DNA of 64,000 bases, taken from NCBI GenBank assembly GCA_022641835.1, contig CP048715.1, positions 992,001-1,056,000 on the forward strand, read 5' to 3'. This document shows, one piece after another, positions 12,978-63,851 of this stretch. Below the pieces are notes generated by a model. That model was not told the DNA's origin and ran no database searches. It saw only the letters and a program-made list of their open reading frames with translations. Numbering within the stretch: position 1 is the first letter of the stretch; each line of letters starts with the position of its first letter. The DNA is from Petasospora fabianii (taxonomy: Eukaryota; Ascomycota; Saccharomycetes; Phaffomycetales; Wickerhamomycetaceae). Position numbers and translations under genes: made by a program.

Positions 12978-13094
12978 TCGTAGAGGCTGTTTGTTGATTG
13001 ATAGTGTGTGAAGTGAAGAGACACAAGAAATGCGCGTCTTTGGTGGTGGGTGACGACGCGTCGTTTTCGCGATGAAAAAGTGCTTTATATTCAT

Positions 13095-14900
13095 ATGACG
13101 CGTAAATAAGACTATATATATAGACTCGATTTAACTAGTTAAAAAGAGCTAAGCCCAATGTTTAGTCGGTGCAATTCAGAATGGTAACAGTGTGGAGATA
13201 GTGACGTGAATCCCCTACATAATGTGATTACTCAAATGTAAGTTATGGTATGGTTAAGAGTTGCAATTAGTATATGGTGGCAGCGCATTACGATCATACA
13301 CAACGACGAGCGAGTGTTAGGGTTACAGAATACTTCTAAATGATACCTAGGGACCTGGACTAGAGTGTAAACATTACCCTTTTGCAAAGAAGTAGATAGC
13401 ACACACGTTGAAACATGTAAAAGTCATGAACCCTCCATGAATCAGCCATGCATCAACTTCAACTTAGTCATCAACACGAACCCTACTGCAAACATTAGAT
13501 CTTGTCAACAGAGAAGGAGTTAACCTCCCCTGATATAATGTTCAGTTTTCAACAATGTAAATAGGAAAGAAATGATCACAGCTTGCTGTTATATATCTCT
13601 TCAGTGGCCATGTTATCAAGATACTACAATAAAAATATAAAGACTTTCCACCAAAACTAACCCATACGACAAATGGCGAATACGTGATTGTGACGAGCAT
13701 GGGAATAGGGCGCAGTTACCGAAGAACTACTTCACCAATAATAGGGGTCATTAGGTGGATAAGCAAACTCGATAAAGTATTTAAACAGTAAGTTGCATTT
13801 TTCATCAATGCATAGTTATGCATTATAATGCAACCTTGCTGGAATGCATATATTTACGATCAGACATGCATACTCTTCGCGAAAAGTGCAGAAAAATGCA
13901 GAAAAATCTACGAAATTAATCAAACTAACAAAATGATCATACACACGAGTTCCTTCCTTTCACAGCCTAAGAACACCATCAATATAACGTGTAGCTCACA
14001 GGGTTTCGAACCATAGTGCCCTTGAGGTGTAAACCAAGCTACTCTGATATAGCGGCCATGCGTCTTTTCACCAGATACGACCTCCTAGATCACGTTGTCT
14101 CTTGTCAGTGAACTACAATCATACACAATGACGAACGAGAATTAACGCCAGAAACCGCATAGAGACTGTAGATGGGGGTCTCAGGTATCATAAAAACAAC
14201 TTGAAACCTCTTGATGGCTTAATTCCATTGTGTATGATGGTCCTAACTGTACGGCGTTTCATTTTCAAAATCGGGCAGATTTCTGACATCTGTAAATCGA
14301 TCATATGTCATGAAACATGCCTGAAACGGCGCGTACTTGCCTTCAGTGTCATTATCTGCCTTCTCAGTCACGTCCTGCAGGTTCATATCACTTTATTTGG
14401 CCCCAGATAGCTTTCAACTGAGGATTTGTCATGATATTTTGTCACGATGGTGAAGTGTATCCTGTTACAGCTCATTGATCAACTGGTCTATACCTGCGTA
14501 CAACAGCCTAAGTTCACCCTCACATATGCCTTCGCACTATTTAGCATATATTTTCTACTTGAATTTACTGTAAAGTCTTGTAATCGGGGATATAAGGATC
14601 ACTCGGGGACTACATGTCTCCCTGACGCGTCATGACACCACCGTTTTATACTCAATTTTGCCTTAACCACGGCCAACGCAGCATCTACAAGCACAAAACA
14701 AGCTTCATATTAGTACTATCAACTTAGCAGATCCCTTAAGGAGCACTAAAGACGCATACCTGCCCTCCTTCTATCCCCAGCGCCTTCCTACAACATAGCC
14801 AGACATGACCCTATACCTACGAAAAATCGGGCATGCCCCCGCTTTCCCATGATTACCCAACATTTTTGACCCCACTGGGACCATTAATATAGCAAGGAAG
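13095..14900. other. Gene desert, left half
   Basis: About 1.8 kb without a credible gene on either strand, following HAT2. It has ordinary base composition and some ATGCAT repeats near 13,810-13,870. One diverged direct repeat is visible: ATCATACACAACGACGAGCG at 13,293 resembles ATCATACACAATGACGAACG at 14,118. A sequence with a T-loop-like GGTTCGAAACC lies on the minus strand near 14,000-14,015, but the flanking bases do not fold into a full tRNA. No transposon protein motif was seen. Confidence 0.5.
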
Positions 14901-15860
14901 GGCCTCTCGCTTTAATGGTGGCCTCTATGCTGACATTACAGGTTGTGTGCAGAGTGTTGGGCCCCAGTGAATTTGTCCGATGCCTCAACATGGAGAGGCA
15001 CAACCTCACTGCCTATGACGATTCATGGCCACATGAGTATCCCCCACCTGGGGGAAGAACAACACCACCGGGGTATCATCCATCACTGTTTTTAATTCAT
15101 TATCATTTATATTACTTAATATTAATATTTATTACTGTTCATCCACCCTGTCTATGTTCAGCGTTGGTACCTCTTCCCAGGGGCCGCGGATCTACTTTTG
15201 GGTCAGCGTAAGGCTTATCCCACTGCCAGGGACTATTCGGGATAGTCGTGTCCAGAGACCACCAATTCCTTCCTCTTCCAACCTAGGTGGCACTATGACG
15301 ACCATCTCCGTAGTCTTTACCTGGGGGGGAGAAGTGTCCGACATCCTGGGATGACCCTCCAGGATTTCTCCACCTGTCTGCGAGGGACACCACCTAGGGT
15401 TTGCCGAGCTTCCCCGTTCGGGTTGCCAGGCACAGGAATCCGGAGCCTACTATTGAGTGCACACGAGCCCCCATGTCACTGTCCCAGAAGAAGGCTCCAC
15501 CCCGATGACTGTCGTGGTAGGTCTAGTCCACCGTCATGTGCCGAGGCCATACTGGCTTCCCTCGTTAAATGGGGCCAGCGGGAGGTGTACGGAGTCCTTC
15601 AACTAAGAGGTATAACACCAACCTCCATGCAGACACTGACCCCGAAGAAGCACTGGCCCTTAGGGTACCCTAGACATATAACAATTGACACGCCTGGGTG
15701 TGATATAAGGCAACGGACTCCTCCCTGCTCGCAGCTCTACTTTGGCTGGGCATCCTTCAACTCCAACTACAAATGGTATAAGTCACATGTGGACGATTGC
15801 CCTGAGACCAATCCACCTCTCTGAGAGGCTGTCACTGACAGCTGAAGTTATGACATGGGT
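14901..15860. ncRNA. GC-rich, hairpin-dense segment (candidate non-coding RNA)
   Basis: This stretch is visibly more GC-rich than its surroundings and lacks a recognisable protein. It holds many perfect hairpins: TCCCCC-ACCT-GGGGGA (15040-15055), GACTAT-TCGGG-ATAGTC (15231-15247), CCTCT-CTG-AGAGG (15816-15828) and GCTGTCA-C-TGACAGC (15828-15842). A 157-codon open frame at 15351 has no family resemblance and a biased composition. The pattern fits a structured RNA better than a gene. It is not a recognisable SRP, RNase P, MRP or spliceosomal RNA. Strand is unknown. Confidence 0.35.
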
Positions 15861-16450
15861 GTTCAGTATTGAGTCAGAGCGCGGTAGTAATGAATGAAGG
15901 CAGTTAGCTCATCAGCCTCGACAAGCGAGGACACATGTGAAGACACATGATTAGACATCACATCCAGCAACTTAACTGAGTCAACACAAGAACGTTTAAC
16001 AGTCACCGTGGTCCGAGAGCCTGTGAAGGCTCATAGCTACAATGCTTCGTCAAGATAAGATACTGGAATGGAGGCAGTTAGCTCACCTGCCTTGACTTAT
16101 AGATACGCCAAAGACATACCATGCAAGGACACACATGTAAACATGTGTCAAACCAGTAAACCCATCAGACATAACACCGGAGGTCCACAGTGTCCATCGA
16201 CCCATACGTTCGGAGAGGAGGAAAGGGGATCGTTAGTTCAGAGTCCTGTGTCAGTAGGTGAAAGTAGTGAATGAAGAGCTGTTAAGCTCTTCCCCTCGAC
16301 CTATAGATAGGAGTACCGCAACACTCCTATAATGCAAGTTCACACGTATGAAATACGTGGTAAGACACCAGTTTCAACCCAACTGACTCGACAACTGAAC
16401 ATACCCACAGAAATACAGGCAGGAAAGCACGGCCTCTCCGAAGGGGTCAA
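15861..16450. repeat. Three diverged copies of a structured hairpin unit
   Basis: Three units start at about 15861, 16052 and 16236. Units 1 and 3 share GTTCAG, then GTCAG, then TGAATGAAG. In all three a first hairpin carries a TTAGCTC or TTAAGCTC core: AGGCAG/CAGCCT (one mismatch), AGGCAG/CTGCCT (16072-16092), and AAGAGCT/AGCTCTT (16274-16291). Next comes CCTYGAC, with TATAGATA in units 2 and 3. A second hairpin has a different but fully paired stem in each copy: CATGTG/CACATG (15934-15949), ACACATGT/ACATGTGT (16131-16148), CACGTAT/ATACGTG (16343-16359). Extra hairpins are GAGCCT-GTGA-AGGCTC (16017-16032, GNRA loop) and ATAGGAGT/ACTCCTAT (16307-16330). Paired changes that keep the stems point to selection on RNA structure. 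Confidence 0.55.
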
Positions 16451-16643
16451 GGGATCATCAATGGTAGGGTGTCCTCCATCTCCAAGCTGCACTTAGCTAT
16501 TCATGAAGTTTGTAACAAGTGTCTACAGAGAGTACAGATGTACGTTGGCAGCTTTCAGTATCAAAATGATAAGTTTGGTGACACAAAGACTTAAAGTAAA
16601 CGGTCTAGTCACGTGACACTTAGCCGGATATAAGCGGAGTTTA

Positions 16644-16685
16644 ATTTTCAGCTGGGTGAAAAATTATATACCCCAGCCTGAAAAT
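16644..16685. other. Strong inverted repeat (stem-loop)
   Basis: ATTTTCAG-CTGGG pairs with CCCAG-c-CTGAAAAT: 8 bp, one bulged C, then 5 bp, closing a 15-nt AT-rich loop. It lies about 100 bp beyond the BUL1-type stop codon and just after the repeated hairpin units. It could be a 3'-end structure of either locus. Confidence 0.6.
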
Positions 16686-16707
16686 CTTAGTCTTAGTAGT
16701 ACTAATA

Positions 16708-16761
16708 CATCACCAACCAACTTAGAGTTTCATTTACTAGTATTTTGAAGAGTTGGTGATG
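16708..16761. other. 10-bp perfect inverted repeat in the BUL1-type 3' region
   Basis: CATCACCAAC (16708-16717) and GTTGGTGATG (16752-16761) are perfect complements separated by 34 nt. They lie 22-75 nt past the stop codon of the minus-strand arrestin-like gene, in its presumed 3' UTR. Confidence 0.6.
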
Positions 16762-16782
16762 ATCCAAGAGTTCATTAATTGA

Positions 16783-18888
16783 TTATTCGTGAATGTTTCT
16801 CACGCGGATTGGTACCCTAATGATCAATTTATCGGAACATCCTTTAAACTTGATTGTGAGTTCAATGGCGTAGAATCTTGTCATGAGACAAGTTTGGAAA
16901 CTTGGAATCAGTGTCTCTTTCACGCTCTTTGCCAAGTGAAGATCCAATATGAGCTTTCTGGTCCATTCTTTTGTACTAGGACTCTCATTCCAGTCACTAG
17001 TGGCAGGATTAATATCCACTTTAACATGTGGGCGAATTGATGTTGTCATTTTCAAATCGGAAAGCACCTTGGAATCATTTAAGAGTGATTGTGGGATATA
17101 TTCTGCCGGGTTGATATCATCAGTCGTGAGCTTTTCCTTTGTAGTGGAAAGAGCTTGATGGAGTTCAAGGAAGTTTTGCTTCATCTTTTGGAACGATTTG
17201 GCATCTTGATCCATAAGGATGTTAGTTGGAAAAGAGATTGGGATTGGGTGCTTGGAAATGACGTTTGAAATGACCAGTGAAGAGTTTACAGATACTATTG
17301 GTGGTGGTTTAGCGGCTTTTGAGCCTTGTCCCAAGGAAGATAGATCAGAAGGTCTGAAGGTAAGATCAAGGTCGAGTGTAGATAAAGATGAACGTTCTTC
17401 TTTTGAGTAACCGGAGAGAATTGGATGTGGTGAATGTTTGTGTGGCTTGACTTGAAGTTGTTGAATCGTGGTATATGGAAGACCACTAATTGGAATCCTG
17501 GCACGGGCTTTGATAACTCCATCATATTTACGATCTCTTGAACCAAACTTTGCACGACCAACAGAAGTCAAGAATCCCGTAACTTCAAAAAAAGACCTTT
17601 CTGAAGGTCCATATGAATCTGTGAGAACTTTAGAACTTGTCATCTCATCTCGAAGATGAAGTTGCTGCTGCTTGATTTCATTATCCAATCTTGCAATCTG
17701 TTCATCGGATCCGTCATTACCCAACAACACTCTTCTTTCAGCGCTGGCAATTGTACACTTGATTAACTTTTCAAGTGTTGACAGTTCAAATGAGGTAGTT
17801 GTCTTTGGGACATTGTATCCGAAAGGTACGAATCTGATGTAGTGTTCATCCTCTGCTATGATCTTGGAGACATCATCACCATTGGAATCTTTCTCATTAC
17901 TATCGAGACCGATGAAAGTGGCATTAACAACGTATGAGATACTAACATCATGTCCGGAAAGGTCATTTAGCAGTAATGGACTTCCCCTCTCAGCAGTAGT
18001 GCCATATCCCAGATCAGGATTGACATCAAGCTTAGCATATTTGCCATTCTTATGGAAGCGATTGACACCAAGACTTGGTGGAAGCATCATATGTGCCTCA
18101 ACACCATGAGCACAGGCGTTATCCAGTAGACGATGAGGGAACTTGAAAGAGAAGAACTTCTTGTAAGCGGTGTTAGGTTTCATTACTCTATCCGTAGGAA
18201 GTGCCATCCATGCGCCGTCTGTATCCTTCTTGTCAAAGCTGTATGCAATGTTTGCAGAAGGTGTGATGAATCCATATGTCCAGGAGGCATTCATGTCAAT
18301 CATGTGGAGGAAGCGACGATTATGCAGCTTCTTAGACTTCTGGTCTGTTACTGATACCATACCGGATAGCGTCAGGTAAAACATGTGGAAAGGGATTTCG
18401 TTTGGTGAAGAGTTTTGGACTATAACGTAACCGTGGAGTACATCGCCAGATGTGTACTCTCTCAGGAAAGATTCTGGGATTGGTTCTTTGAATTGTGCTG
18501 GTGGTTCCTTAGTGAAGTGAATTGAGACTTTAAGTGATGGTATTGGTGGGAAATGTCGTAGTCTGTGGATATTGGCTGGGTCATCTAAGCCTATGCTTTG
18601 GAGCGTATCGCTTGTGAGACTAGACGTGTGAACAGTTGACGTATACGGAGCCGGTTCGGGATCATCCGTTGTAGTGTTTGGCAATTGAAACTCCGAATTT
18701 GCACTCGTTGCAGGAGTAGCAGCAGTTGCGAGTTCATCGCCATAGACTGGTGGTTGATCTCTGGAAGGACGGGACACCCGTGAGTCATATATGGAACGGT
18801 GCATCTCAAAGGATGGGAGAACATCGAATAGGACATCTCTGTTGTCATCACCAAGATCGATTTGATCCGTATCATCTAAAGATCCCAT
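16783..18888 (-). CDS. BUL1: Bul1/Bul2-type arrestin-like ubiquitin ligase adaptor
   Basis: A 701-aa relative of yeast Bul1/Bul2, adaptors that bring the Rsp5 ubiquitin ligase to membrane permeases. The family block VLFDVLPSFEMHRSIYDSR is followed by a PPVY motif (WW-domain ligand for Rsp5). Next are the arrestin-like sandwich (LREYTSGDVLHGYVIVQNSS, FHMFYLTLSG, MNASWTYGFITPS, NTAYKKFFSFKFPHRLLD) and the C-terminal signature KETLIPSFQTCLMTRFYAIE. The start at 18888 (MGSLDDTD) is chosen over 18942 because the extra 18 residues look unconserved. Its glycine-2 would allow N-myristoylation, which is inference. One gene of this type is seen here; whether a second paralog exists cannot be told. Confidence 0.88.
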   Translation of the reverse strand: MGSLDDTDQIDLGDDNRDVLFDVLPSFEMHRSIYDSRVSRPSRDQPPVYGDELATAATPATSANSEFQLPNTTTDDPEPAPYTSTVHTSSLTSDTLQSIGLDDPANIHRLRHFPPIPSLKVSIHFTKEPPAQFKEPIPESFLREYTSGDVLHGYVIVQNSSPNEIPFHMFYLTLSGMVSVTDQKSKKLHNRRFLHMIDMNASWTYGFITPSANIAYSFDKKDTDGAWMALPTDRVMKPNTAYKKFFSFKFPHRLLDNACAHGVEAHMMLPPSLGVNRFHKNGKYAKLDVNPDLGYGTTAERGSPLLLNDLSGHDVSISYVVNATFIGLDSNEKDSNGDDVSKIIAEDEHYIRFVPFGYNVPKTTTSFELSTLEKLIKCTIASAERRVLLGNDGSDEQIARLDNEIKQQQLHLRDEMTSSKVLTDSYGPSERSFFEVTGFLTSVGRAKFGSRDRKYDGVIKARARIPISGLPYTTIQQLQVKPHKHSPHPILSGYSKEERSSLSTLDLDLTFRPSDLSSLGQGSKAAKPPPIVSVNSSLVISNVISKHPIPISFPTNILMDQDAKSFQKMKQNFLELHQALSTTKEKLTTDDINPAEYIPQSLLNDSKVLSDLKMTTSIRPHVKVDINPATSDWNESPSTKEWTRKLILDLHLAKSVKETLIPSFQTCLMTRFYAIELTIKFKGCSDKLIIRVPIRVRNIHE

Positions 18889-61215: not shown

Positions 61216-61471
61216 TTTTCATTTGGGATGATAATTGGAGTTTATGTTTATATATAATCTGTTTTAACGTTATTTAGTTGTAGAGCTTGATAAAGTTGAT
61301 GTAAAACATCCAAACACCATTTCCAAGCCCATGTTGAAAAGTAATGTCTACAGAACAAACGTTAGCACTCGATCATCAGAATGGTATTACCTAGCTCATC
61401 AAACCTTTTGCCTTCAGGATTATAAGTGGTTCTGTACTACAGCGACTCACCAACTACATCAAACCGAGAAA

Positions 61472-62434
61472 ATGTCGACAGAGCTGGTATCTCAACCACC
61501 TAAACGCAAACCTGCGCGTGTACAAGTGGACCCCGATGAGTTCACAGAAGACCTCCCACCACAAACGGGAACGGTGTTTAACATCTGGTATAACAAATGG
61601 TCTGGTGGTGGCTCACAATTCACGCTTGTAAAGGCAAAATATAAACTGAATGTTGAAAGAGATACCGGGTATACGAAGGCGGACAAGCTTGATCGTCCTT
61701 ATTTCTGTCTTTTCTTCGCTAAGGGTATGTGTTGTAAGGGGAAGAAATGTGAATATTTGCATCGTGTTCCAACTGAAGAGGATGTGTTTCCTCTGACTGT
61801 GGACTGTTTCGGAAGAGAGAAGTTTGCAGATTTCCGTGATGATATGAGTGGTGTTGGATCTTTCAATACCGTTAACAAGACGTTATACATTGGTGGTCTA
61901 GTGGTGAAAGATGATACTCAAGAACTGCTACGTAATGAGTTTAGAAAATTTGGCAAGATTGCCAAAATGAACATCATTTCCAATAAAAATTGTGGGTTTG
62001 TGACGTTTAAGGATGAGGCAAATGCACAGTTCGCTAAGGAGGCCATGATGGGTCAGAGTCTTTACGGTACTGATATCTTAAATGTGAAATGGGCTCATGA
62101 GGATCCTAACCCAGCTGCTGTGAAACAAAGGAAAAGAGAATTGGAGCTTGAGACTCAGCAAGTTGTTAAGAATTTGTTGGAGAAGAGTGAGGCAGCATCT
62201 AAGAAACAAAAGTTGGAAACGCAAAATGATAACGAACCAGTTGTCGATGTACCTGATAACGAGGATGATGAGCAGATAACTACAAACACAGAGGTGAAGC
62301 AAATTGAAGCATCAAAAAACACGGGTATCTTCAATGGATCATCCTTGGAGTTCCTTAAGCATGTCAAGAGACAACCTGCAAAGCAGACTGCAGCCCCGCT
62401 CATCACGGGATACGAAAGCAGTGATGACGAGTAA
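61472..62434 (+). CDS. CWC2: Pre-mRNA splicing factor Cwc2
   Basis: Cwc2 is a Prp19-complex protein that contacts U6 RNA and promotes the active spliceosome core. Torus domain with CCCH finger: TGTVFNIWYNKWSGG, FCLFFAKGMCCKGKKCEYLH. RRM: KTLYIGGLVVKDDTQELLRN, NCGFVTFKDEANAQFAKEAM, then WAHEDPNPA. The C-terminal helix and acidic tail complete a 320-aa protein. ATG 61472 (MSTELVSQ) is used; the in-frame ATG at 61331 would add 47 residues without similarity. With ECM2 it covers the two halves that human RBM22 combines. Confidence 0.93.
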   Translation: MSTELVSQPPKRKPARVQVDPDEFTEDLPPQTGTVFNIWYNKWSGGGSQFTLVKAKYKLNVERDTGYTKADKLDRPYFCLFFAKGMCCKGKKCEYLHRVPTEEDVFPLTVDCFGREKFADFRDDMSGVGSFNTVNKTLYIGGLVVKDDTQELLRNEFRKFGKIAKMNIISNKNCGFVTFKDEANAQFAKEAMMGQSLYGTDILNVKWAHEDPNPAAVKQRKRELELETQQVVKNLLEKSEAASKKQKLETQNDNEPVVDVPDNEDDEQITTNTEVKQIEASKNTGIFNGSSLEFLKHVKRQPAKQTAAPLITGYESSDDE

Positions 62435-62747: not shown

Positions 62748-63851
62748 ATGTATAACCGTCTCAGATCTTCTGCCCCACCTTTTATAACGGGAACGCGTCG
62801 CAAGCTAACCACAGTGTCTACGATTCCACCGAACGCTGCTGCCGTTTCACAGGTTTTCACATTGACTTCTCACGTCTCGAATCATCTCATACGGTTCCCC
62901 TTTCGAGTGGCCAGTTCTTCCAATGGCACACAAAGCTCACGTTCTGCGTCTAGTACCCATTTCGAGGGCCTCTTAGCCAAGTTCCGTACTAATGCCCAAG
63001 ACGATGGGTTCTTCAAGAGTAATACACAACCAGAGTCTCCACAGACATTAGCTATGACTCTTTCCTCGAAGGCCATTGTCGTGGCAATCGATACAGGTGG
63101 ACACTGTCCCACTTGTGTCAGTGATATTGGGTTTTGCATCTACGACAAGCTTAGAAACTCTGTGTACATGATCCAGATCGACATCAACGGCAGAAAGTTG
63201 TCCCGAAAGAGTGGAATCATGACGAATTTACTCGCTATACCTTTGAAACTTGATGAAAATCAGACAATGGAGTTTGCAAGTAAGTTACTTTGGTATTATC
63301 TTGTGGAGCAGCGTCGTGCCGGTCATGATGTTTGCATGGTGGGCCATAGTTTGGAAAGAGATCTCAAGAGTTTAAGAGCTTTAGGAATTAATGTTCCACG
63401 TCATGTTCCGAAGATTGATACAGATGTCTTATGTCGTGAGACTATGTTTCAACAAGGTCTCAATTTAAGGAAATTAGCGTTAAGCTTGGGTATCACAGAG
63501 TTGAAACCTTTCCATCCATCAGTGAACGATGCATATTATACACTCCATGTATTATTGAGACTTGTCAACACTCCACAATTCACCAAAGTGCCCTTCCAAA
63601 AGCTTCAGGCACAGCATAGAAAGTATATGCTTCGATTGGATCGCAAATTAGTGAAAGAACTCAAGAGTGAAGATCCAGCAAGGGCCGCTAATGAACTTAG
63701 TCGTCAGGAGAGACAGTTTGTTAAGAGGTTTGGTCTTTCGTTTGACCCAGATCCAACTTTGGGTAATTCATCAGCTGCTTATGGTACTGTTTTTATATCT
63801 GATGAAGCAGGTAGATCAGACGGAAAATTTGCTACAATGGTTAGTTCTTGA
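62748..63851 (+). CDS. Gfd2/YDR514C-type DEDDh exonuclease-like protein
   Basis: A 367-aa protein with a basic, R/S/T-rich N-terminus (residues 1-25) that looks like a mitochondrial presequence. Residues about 105-275 resemble the RNase H-fold domain of yeast Gfd2 and YDR514C: AIVVAIDTGG, SDIGFCIYDKLRNSVYMIQI, GHSLERDLKSLRALG (D205), and HPSVNDAYYTLHVLLRL with the HxxxxD motif (H256, D261). The first acidic motif, normally DxE, reads D115-T-G117, so one metal ligand seems missing. That may reduce or abolish catalysis unless the adjacent sequence compensates. The C-terminal 90 residues are charged and partly disordered. The assignment is by domain pattern. Confidence 0.65.
   Translation: MYNRLRSSAPPFITGTRRKLTTVSTIPPNAAAVSQVFTLTSHVSNHLIRFPFRVASSSNGTQSSRSASSTHFEGLLAKFRTNAQDDGFFKSNTQPESPQTLAMTLSSKAIVVAIDTGGHCPTCVSDIGFCIYDKLRNSVYMIQIDINGRKLSRKSGIMTNLLAIPLKLDENQTMEFASKLLWYYLVEQRRAGHDVCMVGHSLERDLKSLRALGINVPRHVPKIDTDVLCRETMFQQGLNLRKLALSLGITELKPFHPSVNDAYYTLHVLLRLVNTPQFTKVPFQKLQAQHRKYMLRLDRKLVKELKSEDPARAANELSRQERQFVKRFGLSFDPDPTLGNSSAAYGTVFISDEAGRSDGKFATMVSS

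Follow-up and report, generated by a model that had tools for sequence, protein, structure and literature searches.

A dispersed multi-copy element of Petasospora fabianii with tandem cloverleaf-like domains, possibly encoding a large structured non-coding RNA

In the yeast Petasospora fabianii, three tandem units with pairing stems were found to be part of a longer non-coding element that occupies about 13.8-16.5 kb of the window (the whole stretch of 64,000 nucleotides that was analysed) and that occurs at 14 loci in the 12.3-Mb, 16-contig genome. Our best explanation, which we hold with about even confidence, is that these 14 dispersed loci are genes for, or derivatives of, a large structured non-coding RNA about 3-5 kb in size, read from the window's minus strand. 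The computed support consists of paralogous loci without a conserved reading frame, a near-invariant core, tandem cloverleaf-like domains, which have the more stable consensus fold on the minus strand, variable stems, and conserved junction strands and P4 loop, and an upstream motif that 5 copies share at the minus-strand 5' end. The family most likely represents multi-copy genes, or a mix of genes and decaying copies, and the existence of the RNA itself is something that we infer.

The three tandem units, already noticed in the first-pass annotation, are present as minus-strand domains at 15884-15962 (u1), 16058-16159 (u2) and 16256-16383 (u3). Unit u1, delimited from alignments and from a covariance-model match of 45.6 bits (model R1, described below), is cloverleaf-like without a full P3 and has a P1 of the GTAATG/CATTAC type, a P2 of CATGTG/CACATG and a P4. 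Unit u2 is a cloverleaf with the stems TACTGG/CCAGTA (P1), ACACATG/CATGTGT (P2) and GGCAG/CTGCC (P4). Unit u3, recognised by a match to model R2, is a cloverleaf with a long outer stem P1 (11 bp of Watson-Crick pairs in copy L036_6026) and with P2, P3 and P4. The linker between u2 and u1 (15963-16057, minus strand) is predicted from helices 6-10 of the consensus fold to pair with the linker between u3 and u2 (16160-16255, minus strand), and this predicted pairing would put u2 at the tip of a long arm. The stems that had been quoted on the plus strand (CATGTG/CACATG, ACACATGT/ACATGTGT, CACGTAT/ATACGTG, AGGCAG/CTGCCT and AAGAGCT/AGCTCTT) all occur in the sequence, and the observation that stems differ yet remain paired across the three divergent units holds. 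The list of five motifs said to be common to the units stands only in part, as TATAGATA and ACCAG are missing from u1; moreover, the TTAGCTC loop is not found in all units, since u3 has TTAAGCTC instead, and the u1 stem is AGGC/GCCT and not the one quoted.

The remaining parts of the element, all given on the minus strand, are a right-side remainder at 16384-16487, with homology to other copies ending at 16487, a core of about 1.1 kb at 14774-15860, defined by an alignment of 13 copies, and a left module, about 1 kb long, at 13797-14773. In the core, columns 60-1019 of the alignment contain 0-14 variable columns per 60-column window (13 copies, gaps ignored), and the edges are more variable, with 22 variable columns in the first 60-column window and 18-24 in each of the last three. 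The left module exists in two types, type A in 6 loci, including that of the window, and type B in 7 others, with a mean identity of 0.72 among A-type modules, 0.71 among B-type modules and 0.47 between the types, compared to 0.39 for type A against shuffled type B. Its left edge (about 13797-13906 in the window) consists, in both A- and B-type copies, of repeated TGCATA/TATGCA-like words, with TTCGCGAA next to them in most copies. A conserved long-range repeat of the ATCATACAC/GTATATGAT type was also seen in the left module, with plus-strand wobble in B-type copies (by eye, uncounted), which speaks against a minus-strand reading. At about 14001-14016 of the window, the minus strand of the left module carries the tRNA B-box-like GGTTCGAAACC; L036 comes near it, and the other A-type copies do not.

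The genome was searched with a 590-base stretch and a 2.9-kb stretch of the window and with a 4.2-kb stretch from another copy, and the 25, 27 and 24 matches obtained, which are lower bounds, were merged into 14 loci. These are located on contigs C1 (1007k and 1324k), C2 (714k, partial), C3 (1352k and 1527k), C4 (160k, 214k, 967k and 1169k), C5 (930k and 942k), C8 (54k and 214k) and C9 (256k). The numbers of copies per contig (C1 2, C2 1, C3 2, C4 4, C5 2, C8 2, C9 1) rule out a centromere-like element present once per chromosome. The family comprises 19 copies of u1, 19 of u2 and 18 of u3, together with two additional unit types, u4 (6 copies) and u5 (7 copies), and some loci contain a second u1-u3 block, partial or whole. 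All 32 genomic occurrences of the loop word GGCAGTTAGCTCA fall inside the element, and the reversed word used as a control does not occur at all.

Concerning known families, Rfam 15 gave no match at the gathering cut-off in the window or in nine loci, seven of them element loci, and the best sub-threshold matches in 12990-16780 of the window had E-values of 0.23-6.7, plus one at 8.3. The statement of the first-pass annotation that no named family has this layout is thus borne out on both strands, and a known RNA family was rejected on these grounds. Telomerase RNA was also considered and rejected; no telomere repeat was seen for comparison at either end of 7 of the 16 contigs (150 bases read per piece end). 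Literature searches found nothing alike, which is no proof of absence.

The transcribed strand is most likely the minus strand, opposite to the plus strand first proposed, as judged from the consensus fold energy, the G.U asymmetry and the extra pairing of the predicted structures. The outer closing stem P1, which turns each unit into a cloverleaf-like domain, forms in the minus-strand reading, in which the two linkers also pair with one another. The consensus fold of the 18-copy u1-u3 block has an energy of -98.2 kcal/mol on the minus strand (shuffled -59.4, z -6.4) and of -64.9 kcal/mol on the plus strand (shuffled -46.3, z -3.9). The RNAalifold energy is lower on the minus strand for all five unit types (minus and plus, in kcal/mol: u1 -18.4 and -14.9, u2 -20.4 and -16.4, u3 -29.1 and -19.7, u4 -24.5 and -17.9, u5 -26.8 and -21.4). 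The P3 hairpin of u2 and u4 reaches at least 6 bp in 23 of 25 units on the minus strand and in 11 of 25 on the plus strand, with means of 6.8 and 4.2 bp; it is more stable on the plus strand in 9 of the 25 units, and L042:3335 pairs P3 on the plus strand only. In u2 of the window, P3 reaches 8 bp only when read on the minus strand, and the single-sequence fold has a z-score of -3.5 on the minus strand versus -1.6 on the plus strand. Fold z-scores calculated by window did not single out the element, and the core was not generally more stable than its shuffled versions.

The distribution of G.U pairs was counted in ten helices with a fully Watson-Crick reference row, where 124 G.U cells are found on the minus strand versus 12 on the plus strand, or 28 versus 12 when counted per base pair; the cells are not independent (P3 contributes 37 and the outer stem of u3 33 of the 124), and it was the minus fold that first drew attention to the ten helices, so that the p value calculated for this contrast is not to be read literally. 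The strand count depends on the choice of helices, because helices predicted on the plus strand (71 plus versus 22 minus cells) and helices predicted on the minus strand (191 minus versus 9 plus cells) each favour their own strand; helices predicted on both strands give 19 minus versus 8 plus. The same counts bear on the proposal that the paired words are DNA-level palindromes, that is, binding sites or cruciforms and not RNA. Some stems are indeed palindromic as DNA (CACATGTG), and the left block has its arrays of TGCATA-like words, but G.U is about ten times commoner on one strand in strand-neutral helices, and long-range outer stems and linker pairing are also difficult to reconcile with DNA palindromes, which we regard as improbable.

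The strand also bears on the suggestion, made in the first-pass annotation from the resemblance of a loop to a tRNA A box, that small RNAs are transcribed from the plus strand by RNA polymerase III starting from A-box-like loops. The word in question, TTAGCTCA, does resemble part of the A box, and some stems fold well on the plus strand too, as does u3 of the window when taken alone (z -4.3 plus versus -3.3 minus, though the energy is lower on the minus strand). Against this, the word lies on the less likely strand and is the P4 loop of the minus strand, where it reads TGAGCTAA and sits in a hairpin loop, and neither the window nor the 13 other loci of the element contain a tRNA gene according to ARAGORN, run with bacterial settings. 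A tRNA or other RNA polymerase III gene was therefore rejected, and we give this proposal only a very slight probability.

For the preferred reading, a large RNA of the minus strand, the claim that the paired stems reflect functional RNA structure finds some support in the occurrence of the family at 14 loci. In the minus-strand structure (133 pairs in 18 blocks), 97.2% of cells are paired, compared to 34-48% for slid versions. Changes on both sides of a pair were found in 26 cells and 9 pairs of the 18 aligned blocks, versus 9.8 cells and 4.7 pairs in shuffles. In the 25 u2 and u4 units the corresponding numbers are 26 cells versus 12.8 shuffled, but 6 pairs versus 5.5, and in 60 distinct units, whose alignment was fitted to the structure model, 267 cells versus 111, but 16 pairs versus 14.5. 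A tree-aware null, in which the changes of each column are redistributed over the tree, was then applied as our own test with a threshold of E<0.05. Among the 18 blocks only two base pairs, 16345-16357 and 16348-16354, both in stem P2 of u3, are significant; they head the ranking of about 130,000 column pairs (E 0.025-0.033). The two cross pairs between them have the same score, as the two base pairs flip as a unit (10:8), and conversion of a single allele block could account for both. In the set of 60 units, the three highest-ranking of 4656 column pairs belong to the structure and none reaches E<0.05, and when the structure pairs alone are tested 6 of 26 pass. Tree-aware covariation in the units is thus weak, and the test has little power, as all copies come from a single genome and are closely related paralogues.

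A covariance model of the units, R1, was trained on u2 and u4 only and was compared to R3, a sequence-only model of the same alignment. R1 was run on both strands of 14 sources totalling 176,413 bases, with E-values of up to 1 accepted, and gave 61 matches, namely the 25 training units, 19 of 19 u1 and 17 of 18 u3, with the u3 of L048 missed and none of the 7 u5 found. All 61 matches are on the minus strand of the element, and none lies outside the elements at E<=1 in the 176,413 bases. In the window, the u1 match has an E-value of 2.9e-10, and u3 was found with 31.1 bits (E 5e-6). R1 thus recovers u1 and u3, which it was not trained on; finding the units is not in itself evidence of structure, because the sequence-only R3 also returns 61 matches (25.6 bits for u1 and 19.6 bits for u3 of the window). 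The bit scores of R1 are higher than those of R3 for all 36 non-training matches, and the E-values of R1 are better for 19 of 19 u1 and 12 of 17 u3, those of R3 being better for the other 5 of 17 u3; the two models differ in effective sequence number.

The conserved core was analyzed for coding potential, given that the element might be the remnant of a protein-coding gene or of a genome-integrated copy of an RNA virus. In 7 of 13 copies (L036, L038, L039, L040, L043, L046 and L047), an uninterrupted plus-strand frame of 109-143 aa ends at a shared stop, and single copies have ORFs of up to 165 aa. Such a frame is to be expected by descent among copies that are nearly identical. In the remaining 6 copies it is broken or out of register, and the changes in the longest common frame fall in 15, 22 and 9 columns of codon positions 1, 2 and 3, which is the reverse of a coding pattern. 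In addition, among shuffled cores (n=300) the longest ORF is at least 109 aa in 8% and at least 143 aa in 1.7%. Pfam gives no match at E-values up to 1 for either the 143-aa or the 157-aa ORF, and no solved structure matches the 143-aa ORF. An exact unit word is absent from viral and prokaryote collections, neither of which is a yeast-genome collection, and an exact core word is absent from the viral collection, which again is not one. A protein-coding core was rejected on account of the broken frame, the codon-position pattern and the absence of Pfam and solved-structure matches to these ORFs, and we consider remains of a protein gene or virus very improbable. Elsewhere in the window, two adjacent ORFs of equal length (367 aa) are located at 61331-62434 and 62748-63851, the first with Torus and RRM domains. 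The genes look like those of Saccharomycotina. In a TAF5-like gene, none of the four CTG codons corresponds to a serine in the two solved structures that match it best, and the standard genetic code is therefore likely in this yeast.

The window copy differs from the 13 others by an insert inside the core at 15085-15142, which is 90% identical to contig C16 over 60 alignment columns; in the search with the 2.9-kb query, the C16 match covers only these 58 bases of the window copy. Beside the matching stretch, C16 has matches to bacterial-type rRNA, a tRNA and group I/II introns, as mitochondrial DNA would, and the window copy therefore seems to carry an insert of mitochondrial DNA.

The right-hand end of the element, which is its 5' end on the minus strand, is kept in 5 of the 14 copies (L036, L037, L038, L043 and L044), which have TTTCTGTGGCA and a TATA-like sequence. 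The order of signals in these five loci is a half-palindrome resembling the X-box of RFX, followed by CGTTTCTGTGGCAG or a close variant, and then the TATA-like sequence; the TATA-like sequences were identified by visual inspection, with no control, in DNA that is rich in AT. The 14-mer CGTTTCTGTGGCAG has three exact matches in the genome, all three at 5' ends of the element. With one mismatch there are 6 matches, 4 of them at element 5' ends, compared to 8 for the reversed control; the support therefore comes from the exact matches and their positions alone. For the two one-mismatch matches outside the element, on C5 and C11, the only homology to the element is a 20-base match (E 0.04) at the motif on C5. 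The window copy is without the 5' part of the five other copies (u5, the upstream motif and the TATA-like sequence) and, because this end is missing, would be either a truncated, decaying copy or the user of another promoter. Upstream of it and downstream of a BUL1-like gene, TATATAA and CACGTGAC are located on the minus strand at 16605-16675, and these could be a candidate substitute promoter.

The main rival explanation is a non-autonomous mobile element (a retroposon or other), whose RNA would be structured for packaging or copying by the enzymes of another element, with the 14 loci representing insertions, of which several are truncated on the 5' side. The 5' ends of the copies do vary and many are short, a conserved coding frame is missing, and the copies are dispersed between unrelated genes: the ORFs nearest to the 13 other loci number 26, and of the 20 that were scanned, 17 have Pfam domains, which differ between loci and reveal no shared theme hinting at a function of the element. 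On the other hand, no terminal repeats surround the window copy, where the only repeats in 13000-17000 are up to 42 bases long, which does not agree with an LTR element or a LARD (large retrotransposon derivative). As regards signs of a SINE or a target-primed retroposon, no A-tail was seen by eye at the left ends, and the ends are not sharp or common to the copies, being too diffuse for target-site duplications to be recognised. Moreover, the copies at 160k and 214k of C4 share a 1.1-kb flank with a 175-aa ORF without a Pfam match (L043:2468-2992 and L044:1760-2284), as would be expected of a segmental duplication, which this probably is, about 53 kb apart. The core is also conserved more than the rest, which is unexpected for dead copies. 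We consequently regard a mobile element as possible, though rather unlikely.

If the loci are RNA genes, as we prefer, RNA polymerase II would transcribe them from the minus-strand 5' end, and the cloverleafs could serve as a series of docking sites, each for one and the same protein (or RNA) partner. The core would then be the constant part, and the whole RNA might act as a multivalent RNP scaffold, with the family presumably kept up by duplication and gene conversion. Somewhat less confidently than for the RNA reading as such, we put forward that the family may represent a new class of eukaryotic RNA gene, namely a multi-copy, kilobase-scale gene of a budding yeast with tandem cloverleafs, an invariant core and its own promoter element. 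In the compact, well-studied nuclear genomes of yeasts, a family of 14 structured RNA loci of kilobase length without an Rfam match would be unexpected. If it is transcribed, it would offer a repeat-domain RNA whose copies can probably be deleted singly, so that partner proteins and role would be directly findable.

The large ornate bacterial RNAs OLE, GOLLD and ROOL are long, multi-domain RNAs with a conserved structure that encode no protein. The element, compared to them here by Rfam scans, would resemble them in being long, multi-domain, structured and non-coding, and differs in being eukaryotic and nuclear, dispersed in multiple copies and composed of tandem similar domains, and in having no Rfam match. 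The LARDs of plants are non-coding and kilobases long, with a conserved structured internal domain and long terminal repeats; the element is likewise non-coding, structured and of kilobase length, and has no LTRs around the window copy. Yeast telomerase RNA is a flexible scaffold of about 1 kb with protein-carrying arms, encoded by a single-copy gene, and the likeness here is by scaffold analogy, whereas the element is multi-copy and has no Rfam match. Finally, structured RNAs in fungal intergenic regions were found through covariation by Gao, Jones and Rivas (2021; PMC8216456), with five model species as queries. The words "paralog", "tandem" and "multiple copies" do not occur in the main text of that study, and the four intergenic structures described in it average 92-144 nt, compared to the kilobase scale of the element described here.
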